Below, in pieces: positions 6,016 through 27,186 of a stretch of DNA of 64,000 nucleotides (its first letter is position 1; each line of letters begins with the position of its first letter). The stretch spans positions 310,001 to 374,000 of the forward strand of contig NZ_OESS01000003.1 of the NCBI RefSeq assembly GCF_900240285.1. The letters run 5' to 3'. The translations under genes and the position numbers were made by a program. Below the pieces are notes generated by a model that saw only the letters and a list, made by a program, of their open reading frames with translations, did no database searches and had not been told where the DNA came from. This stretch comes from Halobacillus sp. Marseille-P3879. Its GTDB lineage: Bacteria; Bacillota; Bacilli; Bacillales; Halobacillaceae.

Positions 6016-6573
6016 ATGAAGAAACGATTATATATAGAACTTGAAAATTGTATTGGCTGCCGTTCCTGCCTGGCTGCATGTACTCAATGCGGCGGACATG
6101 AGGAACGAAATCGGAATTATGTATATGATGTCAATCCACTCGTTGACCGGCAGACTATGCCCTTAATGTGCCTGCATTGTGAAAACCCGGCTTGTGCCCG
6201 CAGCTGTCCTGCGCAGGCGATTCAAATTCACGAAACGGGAGCCGTTTTATCTGCTCTCGTGGAGAAATGTATTGGCTGTCAGAACTGTACGATTGCTTGT
6301 CCATATGGAATTCCTAAATTCGATACGGAGCAGAACCTGATGTACAAATGCGATCTTTGTATCGATCGCACAAAAGACGGCATTCCTCCAATGTGTGCAA
6401 GTGTGTGTCCTTCAAATACACTGCAGTGGCTGACGGAAGAAGAAATTGAGCAAAAAGAACAACAGCATAAACTCGATAACGATAAATGGGTAGCGAGCAT
6501 GCCGTTAGAAGGAAGAACTGAAGTCAAAGTCAACCTGCCTGGAATTCTACAAGGAACGGAAAAATTGTTTTAA
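6016..6573 (+). CDS. Four-cluster [4Fe-4S] ferredoxin subunit (DmsB/NrfC-like)
   Basis: A 185-residue electron-transfer subunit whose ATG directly follows the reductase stop. Four cysteine groups are visible: CIGCRSCLAAC, CLHCENPACARSC, CIGCQNCTIAC and CDLC...CASVCP, the layout of DmsB/NrfC/PhsB-type proteins that link a membrane subunit to a molybdoenzyme. There is no signal peptide, so it should sit on the cytoplasmic side with the catalytic subunit. The short C-terminal tail (EGRTEVKVNLPGILQ) is not typical of any one subgroup. Confidence 0.85.
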   Translation: MKKRLYIELENCIGCRSCLAACTQCGGHEERNRNYVYDVNPLVDRQTMPLMCLHCENPACARSCPAQAIQIHETGAVLSALVEKCIGCQNCTIACPYGIPKFDTEQNLMYKCDLCIDRTKDGIPPMCASVCPSNTLQWLTEEEIEQKEQQHKLDNDKWVASMPLEGRTEVKVNLPGILQGTEKLF

Positions 6574-18607: not shown

Positions 18608-18648
18608 AAAAAAAGATTGAGCCCGAAGATGATTCAGGCTCAATCTTT
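18608..18648 (-). terminator. Minus-strand terminator
   Basis: AAAGATTGAGCC (18612-18623) and GGCTCAATCTTT (18637-18648) form a perfect 12-bp stem; on the minus strand seven T follow (18608-18614). It lies just beyond the terminator of the candidate RNA and may be a second stop for the same transcript. Confidence 0.75.
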
Positions 18649-18666: not shown

Positions 18667-18698
18667 AAAAAAACTAACACTCAATCAAAAGTGTTAGT
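18667..18698 (-). terminator. Intrinsic terminator of the candidate RNA
   Basis: ACTAACAC (18673-18680) pairs with GTGTTAGT (18691-18698) around a ten-base loop, followed on the minus strand by seven T (18667-18673). It begins six bases after the closing helix of the RNA. Confidence 0.8.
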
Positions 18699-19131
18699 GA
18701 TTCTAAACAACTTAGGTGACCCAACCATGTAAGAATCATCCTTGATCTTACATATTCCTAAACTTTACCTTTAGAAGGATAATTCTTAAAGAATTCGTTT
18801 CCTTCTTCCTTTGGTTAAGTCCGAATTTTTTTCTTTATAATCATTTGTTTCATCAAACGATAATAAAAAACTGGCTTGTAATGTTAGACTACCTCTTTAG
18901 GGTTGCGTCACCCCTGTTAAGGTCATCGTCTTACAAGTGATAAGGTGAACTCATTTTCTCTGTGATGCATCTAAGCATCAGAGCAATCAGGACGGCCTGA
19001 ATACAGGGCTTGTCTCAATCCTTACACAGGTTGTGTTCCCTTTGATGACCATCTCCTTTATTCGTTTTAGAAACGAATTCACGATGGTTGAGCCACCTAA
19101 GTTGTTTAACTATTATGTTTTTTCTGTCTAC
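18667..19131 (-). ncRNA. Candidate large structured RNA, about 460 nt
   Basis: No coding frame of note fills this region. Bases 18704-18718 are the exact inverse complement of 19094-19108, and pairing continues ten more base pairs inward (18719-18728 with 19084-19093) using G-U pairs that form only in the minus-strand transcript. The result is a closing helix of about 25 bp around 355 bases that hold further hairpins, for example 18727-18734/18746-18753, 19061-19067/19071-19077 and around 18958-18983. A terminator follows directly on the minus strand and a TATAAT box lies upstream. It is not RNase P, tmRNA or 6S RNA as far as I can tell; OLE-type or another large bacterial RNA is possible. 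Confidence 0.6.
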
Positions 19132-27140: not shown

Positions 27141-27186
27141 TTGCAATTCAGAATTATATAACTTACACTTATTGTAATCGGTTACA
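27141..27186 (+). promoter_or_regulatory. Promoter and operator of the lacI-type gene
   Basis: TTGCAA (27141-27146) and TACACT (27164-27169) with a 17-bp spacer make a plausible SigA promoter. TGTAATCGGTTACA at 27173-27186, just downstream, is a near-perfect dyad matching the two operators ahead of the sugar operon, so the regulator probably represses itself. Confidence 0.65.

Follow-up and report, generated by a model that had tools for sequence, protein, structure and literature searches.

A probable new large RNA with a constant frame and a variable centre, usually preceded by a cre box, in salt-loving relatives of Bacillus

The 64,000-nucleotide stretch of the Halobacillus sp. Marseille-P3879 genome analysed here (hereafter the window) carries a predicted RNA gene on its minus strand, between a PhoD gene and a gene for an AcoR-like regulator. 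The gene would run from position 19131 to an intrinsic terminator at 18698-18667, and all its parts are given below in the minus-strand direction. The most upstream of them is a cre box, TGTAAGCGCTGACA (19198-19185), which matches TGWAANCGNTNWCA at 14 of 14 positions and is centred at -60 from the predicted start. As this box is near-palindromic (13 of 14 on the opposite strand) and lies upstream of acoR as well, it is possible that it also serves acoR. It is followed by an extended -10 element, TGTTATAAT (19146-19138), in which TATAAT (19143-19138) is preceded by TG. The predicted start, the G at 19131, is the 7th base after this element and was inferred, not mapped. An A-rich leader (19131-19107; family consensus GTAAAGAAGATAA) would lead from there to the 401-nt core (19106-18706), which is delimited by the outermost pair of the closing helix P1. 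On the basis of the alignment and of pair counts, the two 23-nt strands of P1 were placed at 19106-19084 and 18728-18706. Inside P1 lie the strands of the long-range helix P2, GAAUUCGUUUCU (19080-19069) and, supported by pair counts, GGAAACGAAUUC (18802-18791), the former of which could alternatively form a local hairpin, H1, with ACGAAU just downstream. P2 encloses a variable central domain (19068-18803; 266 nt in this copy). Further downstream, the AUCC at 18780-18777 is, according to pair counts, the pseudoknot partner of the loop GGAU (18741-18738) of hairpin P4 (18751-18729). The terminator detected by scan consists of a stem (18698-18673) and a T-run. A second, stronger terminator-like hairpin with 16 pairs is found at 18612-18648 (minus strand), between the RNA's own terminator and phoD.

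The original prediction had proposed a large structured RNA at this locus on the evidence of a long terminal helix, the lack of a coding frame, a TATAAT at the right place and an immediate terminator. The 15-bp exact helix (UAAACAACUUAGGUG with CACCUAAGUUGUUUA on the minus strand, read directly) and its 10-bp wobble-containing extension (GCUCAACCAU with AUGGUUGGGU, two G-U wobbles) both held. The same was true of the lack of a coding frame, since no ORF of at least 60 aa overlaps 18667-19131 on either strand; the RNA is thus non-coding as far as ORFs tell, which is an inference from sequence alone. The TATAAT is the hexamer at 19143-19138 and the start predicted from it coincides with the end coordinate originally proposed (19131), while the terminator was recovered by the scan. 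The cre box 60 bp upstream of the predicted start had not been part of that prediction. The minus strand folds with -151.4 kcal/mol (z = -9.9), which none of 100 shuffled sequences equalled. However, the plus strand folds well too (z = -8.1), and therefore the fold energy alone does not settle the strand. The original prediction had assigned the RNA to the minus strand because of its G-U pairs, and the comparison of copies settled the question in the same sense: in the four tested helices of 35 aligned copies we counted 1426 Watson-Crick and 164 G-U pairs, as compared with 27 A-C mismatches and 28 mismatches of other kinds. When the three positions whose consensus pair is itself G-U are set aside, G-U pairs (70) still outnumber A-C mismatches (27).

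In all, 42 copies were found in 31 genomes of Halobacillus, Thalassobacillus, Pontibacillus and their kin. The 41 further copies, with a common frame, a mostly common promoter and compensatory changes, support the proposal of a large structured RNA that is encoded on the minus strand and has a promoter and a terminator to itself, its transcription being inferred; the absence of conservation in relatives, which would have refuted it, did not come true. When the 465 bases of the locus were compared by BLASTN with 101 genomes (its own included), 26 were matched. Near full-length matches occurred only in three genomes of the same genus, and elsewhere the ends were matched and the middle was not. 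A covariance model of the 3' part of the RNA (R1) revealed 37 copies in 26 of the 44 genomes of the taxonomic family (own genome included) and in three of its six genera; the RNA was not found by R1 in the other 18 genomes. Over an order-wide draw, R1 gave matches in 17 of 397 genomes, with the genus of Pontibacillus as the sole new genus. A second model in which divergent members were included (R2) detected the RNA in five of nine genomes of a second family, on the Pontibacillus side, and in a class-wide draw of 398 genomes it matched only the window's own. An exact pattern run on one genome per species of 84,980 species returned 24 stretches, all titled Halobacillus, Thalassobacillus or Pontibacillus. 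Neither this pattern among viral contigs nor BLASTN among phages and plasmids gave a match. Since stricter filters were applied to the large draws and the pattern was exact, weak relatives may have been missed.

A genome can hold up to four copies, which are dispersed in G036 (four copies) and form rows of three in G026 and G029. The phylogeny is narrow and the copy counts are therefore not independent events. A search for the promoter plus leader gave hits in 14 of 397 genomes; six such loci outside the known hosts resembled protein genes or showed no sign of an RNA, and none had a cre box of at least 13 matches in the 90 bases upstream. For an empty-site comparison at phoD we used G009, which lacks the RNA. 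The flank of this genome also differs beyond the downstream terminator, and for this reason no insertion boundary could be read; homology resumes at about the second terminator-like hairpin (18612-18648). In the open-access literature searched, nothing that describes a comparable RNA from these genera was found (titles and abstract openings; subscription journals and supplements were outside the scope).

The shared frame comprises the 23-bp closing helix P1, the long-range helix P2 (12 bp, alignment positions 27-38 with 305-316), the hairpin P4 (8 bp) and the 4-bp pseudoknot between the P4 loop and the upstream AUCC. Pairs were counted on an alignment (A3) of 35 of the 42 copies, from which five close relatives of included copies and two giant members were left out. 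Altogether, 96.7% of the 1645 cells were paired and 12 of the 47 pairs showed double compensatory changes (19 cells), and neither value was reached by any of 500 shuffles. The helices had been derived beforehand from an alignment that contained 31 of these copies, and so the percentage paired is partly built in. In sliding controls the pairing dropped to 27-50%, with one to seven pairs showing double changes. The number of further pair types (32) was reached by 28 of the 500 shuffles and hence does not go beyond them. P1 was paired in 98.4% of cells, with double changes in six of its 23 pairs, and in the copy of G013 alone four P1 pairs were changed on both sides; eleven of the 23 pairs never vary and are uninformative, so the weight of the P1 evidence rests with the divergent members. 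P2 (98.6% of cells) rests mainly on one-sided changes that keep G-U pairs and that fit only the minus strand: six of its 12 pairs vary on one side only and two show double changes. The corresponding values were 88.2% for P4, with double changes in three of eight pairs, and 97.9% for the pseudoknot, with a single C-G to U-A double change, in G004.

The local hairpin H1, which competes with P2, was paired in 95.7% of cells and has one pair with a double change, in four sequences. Its partner hairpin H2 was weaker (83.3%, no double change). The alternative H1/H2 structure as a whole had 94.3% of its cells paired and double changes in 11 pairs, on which measures it, too, lay beyond the shuffles, and consequently the whole-structure numbers do not separate the two pictures. 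The competition between P2 and H1 could mean that the RNA switches, that a kissing loop forms or that two molecules pair with each other, with none of these readings singled out. RNAalifold on an alignment of 31 copies (A1) paired GAAUUAUCC with GGAUGAUUC instead; P4 and the 4-bp pseudoknot are preferred because P4 has three pairs with double changes, and the RNAalifold pairing is less favoured but not excluded. By eye, a further helix seems possible in several copies between the conserved motif GGACUUAACC (18813-18822 in the window, minus strand) and a downstream GGUAAGU; it was left uncounted because its columns align badly. The motif may also be complementary to a conserved segment of 16S rRNA, which could be chance and was given no weight here.

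The copies differ greatly in size. Core lengths were 252 nt in one copy, then 308-453 nt, and finally 948 and 997 nt, and the centre enclosed by P2 ranged from 123 to 870 nt, with both P2-strand motifs present in 42 of 42 copies. The two giants occur in two genomes of the Pontibacillus genus (G117 and G175) and possess a 14/14 cre box at -60, the -10 element TGCTATACT, the leader and the P1 and P4 sequences; their P2 is one base shorter per strand (UUCGUUCC with GGAACGAA). They are 83% identical to each other, their longest stop-free frame does not exceed 98 codons, and they fold with z of about -5 (40 shuffles). At the Rfam gathering thresholds nothing was matched inside either giant RNA, and a permissive Rfam scan of the G175 giant gave no match at E up to 1. 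In four of five within-genome pairs of paralogues the core identity was 0.74-0.91 versus 0.35-0.60 in the centre, and in the fifth pair 0.68 versus 0.32. It is possible that the specificity of each copy is borne by its centre, with which these values agree, but relaxed constraint would look alike. Because folding within subgroups yielded few double changes (2 of 93 pairs with four sequences and 4 of 97 with ten), the fold of the centre is not established.

Most copies look like transcription units of their own, as inferred from sequence alone and without expression data. TG lies one base before the chosen -10 hexamer in 37 of 42 copies (the script that chose the hexamers favoured TG), and past the -10 the consensus continues as GTGTAAAGAAGATAA before P1. 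A scan with a consensus promoter listed four sites, with 3.9 expected by chance, and the extended -10 was not among them; the scan being no better than chance, the promoter is supported by the comparison of copies and not by the scan. A terminator follows 41 of 42 copies (shuffled sequences, 45 of 840), its stem starting at most 15 nt after P1 in 40 copies and 41 nt after it in one. In the remaining copy, in G042, the detector found no terminator, yet a hairpin and then five Ts are visible. The neighbours differ from site to site and include PPK2, a peroxidase-domain protein, YkuI/EAL, a solute-binding protein, carbonic anhydrase, glyoxalase and others. Sites are shared only among near relatives (G001, G003 and G004 on the left side; the window and G001 at phoD), and no conserved neighbour or linked partner protein was seen across sites among the neighbours scanned (20 representative proteins). 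From the differing neighbours and the own terminator we therefore infer action in trans. Two copies with shared neighbours, G036c and G043b (L036:6538-6906 and L126:46-408), are without cre and differ from the others in their promoter region (GTGGTATATAG), which raises the possibility of a third mode of control. Upstream of many copies, a conserved stretch resembling GACACAA is found near -45, between cre and promoter; another protein might bind there, or the stretch might act like an UP element.

A cre box with 13-14 of 14 matches precedes 34 of the 42 copies, centred at -60 (23 copies), -61 (5), -58 (2), -59 (1) or -48 (3) from the predicted start, the step from -60 to -48 (12 bp) corresponding to roughly one turn of the helix. 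Single-letter shuffling of the upstream regions gave a box of such quality, at any position, in only 271 of 42000 trials, and at other TGNTATAAT sites in the DNA examined cre was found at that place in 0 of 18 cases, compared with 31 of 34 distinct promoters of the element. G002 and G010 have a 12/14 match at -57. Two copies, G041b and G036d, carry TTGTGAA-W4-TTCACAA centred at -61, which equals the Rex consensus of S. aureus, TTGTGAAW4TTCACAA (PMC2883068), and is also of the TGTGA-N6-TCACA form of Crp/Fnr-type sites. By inference, its position would be more typical of an activating Crp/Fnr-type protein than of Rex, which is a repressor, though either may be the protein that binds it. Neither box was present at G036b, G036c, G043b and G013. 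Thus, the copies within one genome can differ: of the four copies in G036, one carries cre, one the Rex/Fnr-type box and two no box of either kind, and G041 has one of each kind of box.

True CcpA was present, above the curated cut-off, in all eight genomes tested, including that of the window. In B. subtilis, cre upstream of the -35 goes with activation (ackA, pta, ilvB) in a helix-face-dependent manner, with the lev operon, where an upstream cre represses, as an exception (PMC3463425). By sequence criteria the window copy meets what is expected of the activated class, namely a fixed upstream cre and CcpA in the genome, although there are no expression or binding data; activation by CcpA is inferred from the position of cre alone and remains subject to the lev exception. 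The RNA is patchy (26 of 44 family genomes) and hence not general to CcpA control. AcoR was not seen beside the RNA elsewhere among the neighbours scanned.

The statement of the original prediction that no known family could be matched was supported: none of 4227 Rfam families reached gathering in the window, and a permissive scan of 1001 bases around the locus gave 16 matches, all far below gathering. With no credible match in Rfam 15, the RNA fits no catalogued family. OLE (RF01071) did not match at the locus; a separate OLE of about 0.63 kb exists elsewhere in 43 of the 44 family genomes, with one match each (G000:C8:968212-968838 in the window's genome). OLE, which binds OapA at the membrane, resembles the new RNA in being a large structured RNA of the same host genomes, but it is near-universal and single, whereas the new RNA is patchy, linked to cre and present in up to four copies. 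GOLLD and ROOL, for which Rfam has models, matched neither at the locus nor in the giants. They are large RNAs as well (ROOL measured 659 nt in the sample examined there and many GOLLD RNAs exceed 800 nt, the latter with a conserved and a less conserved region) and occur in phages and prophages, often near tRNA islands (PMC12286853). In contrast, the new RNA had no phage, plasmid or viral-contig match, and a single tRNA was found among 33 stretches, and not in the window; prophage genes around the copies were not systematically sought. 6S RNA, also without an Rfam match at the locus, is another non-coding RNA gene with cre at its promoter, in about one-third of lactic acid bacteria species, but there cre overlaps the -35 and is thought to repress, and 6S is about 210 nt long (PMC8414754). 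The CcpA-activated ackA, pta and ilvB promoters are similar in their upstream cre and helix-face dependence (PMC3463425) and differ in driving protein genes, as opposed to an RNA gene with an extended -10. Group I and II introns gave no Rfam match at gathering. Bacillaceae-1 RNAs (RF01690) were seen in three of four Pontibacillus-genus stretches scanned (L110:1740-1806, L112:1423-1489 and 6193-6259, L113:2314-2380) and are perhaps merely abundant in that genus.

The most likely explanation, to which we assign a probability of roughly 0.72, is that positions 19131-18667 (minus strand) encode a large structured RNA that is transcribed on its own, acts in trans and is turned on by CcpA in the presence of a preferred carbon source. 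The family, its frame, the covariation, the promoter and terminator architecture, the position of cre and the distribution are shown; transcription, activation by CcpA and action in trans are inferred. CcpA and HPr-Ser-P would bind cre at -60 and recruit RNA polymerase to the extended -10 promoter, and the transcript would end at its own terminator. P1, P2, P4 and the pseudoknot would then form a stable closed core, probably bound by a common partner. It is a guess that the constant frame serves to bind this partner or to protect the ends, and likewise that the fast-changing centre confers copy-specific specificity or size. In the two paralogues with the Rex/Fnr-type box, the same frame would stand behind the box of another regulator. 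As to the molecular job, our best guess is a regulatory RNA or an RNP scaffold of carbon and redox metabolism.

Several other explanations should be considered. The RNA could possibly be an ornate RNA of the OLE/ROOL/GOLLD sort, folded into a compact body with a pseudoknot and assembling into homo-oligomers or into a membrane or RNP particle, with CcpA setting only the dose. The core of 0.25-1.0 kb with a conserved, pseudoknotted part, the absence of a 60-aa ORF from the window copy and of long stop-free frames from the giants, the lack of a conserved partner gene alongside, and the inferred possibility that P2 forms between two molecules all speak for it. Against it, no Rfam model matched the locus or a giant, tRNAs are all but absent from the stretches, and the sevenfold range of centre lengths is hard to fit to one fixed cage. 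A base-pairing sRNA of the RoxS/RsaE/RsaI sort scaled up, the single-stranded segments of whose centre would pair with mRNAs of carbon metabolism, is possible but, in our judgement, clearly less likely than not; no targets were sought. The boxes of carbon and perhaps redox regulators at the promoters favour this reading, such boxes being known from metabolic sRNAs of firmicutes, and so does the observation that paralogues of the same genome differ mostly in the centre. However, identities like these would also be expected under relaxed constraint, the predicted fold leaves much of the centre of the window copy paired, and sRNAs of that sort are far smaller.

A bistable, riboswitch-like RNA, in which the strand UUCGUUUCC alternates between a local pairing (H1) and one with GGAAACGAA far away (P2), is consistent with both pairings being kept (P2 in 98.6% and H1 in 95.7% of cells), but it appears unlikely, as the H1 loop and GGAAA may simply kiss without any need of a switch and H2, the other half of the alternative, is the weaker hairpin. 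Least plausible of all is a mobile element (a MITE or an intron relic) whose terminal inverted repeats mimic a helix. Dispersed sites, the three-copy clusters in two genomes and the near-constant ends would suit such an element; nevertheless, P1 varies with compensation (the four double changes in G013), which DNA repeats would not need, the promoter, cre and terminator travel along in most copies, and there was neither an Rfam match nor a match among phages, plasmids or viral contigs. A decayed intron or mobile element had been named in advance as an outcome that would refute the original prediction, and it did not come true, with target-site duplications outside this evidence.

Returning to the preferred reading of a CcpA-controlled, trans-acting RNA, we consider it likely that a large RNA without a catalogued family, which combines a fixed frame with an interchangeable centre and usually stands behind a cre box, is new in these salt-loving Bacillus relatives, and that it probably is a worker of sugar metabolism, the latter being inferred without expression data. 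Few large structured RNAs are known from bacteria, most of them without an assigned function, and this family includes members of about 1 kb. The constant placement of cre ahead of most promoters offers a strong regulatory handle that tells when, and in what physiology, to look, and the natural size variants of 0.25-1 kb separate the constant frame from the variable parts, so that the function is directly testable in cultivable halophiles. A bolder reading, which we hold to be clearly less likely than not, is that of a modular RNA chassis: a P1/P2/P4/pseudoknot frame with centres of 123-870 nt, whose paralogues are wired to CcpA and to Rex/Fnr-type sensors and form an RNA or RNP assembly depending on carbon and redox state. 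If true, it would be the RNA counterpart of a paralogous enzyme family. Elsewhere in the window, perfect palindromes were observed at 27173, 28271 and 28337, TGTAATCGATTACA occurring twice, 66 bp apart, together with a nearby TGTAATCGGTTACA; these could be operators of a LacI-type regulator.
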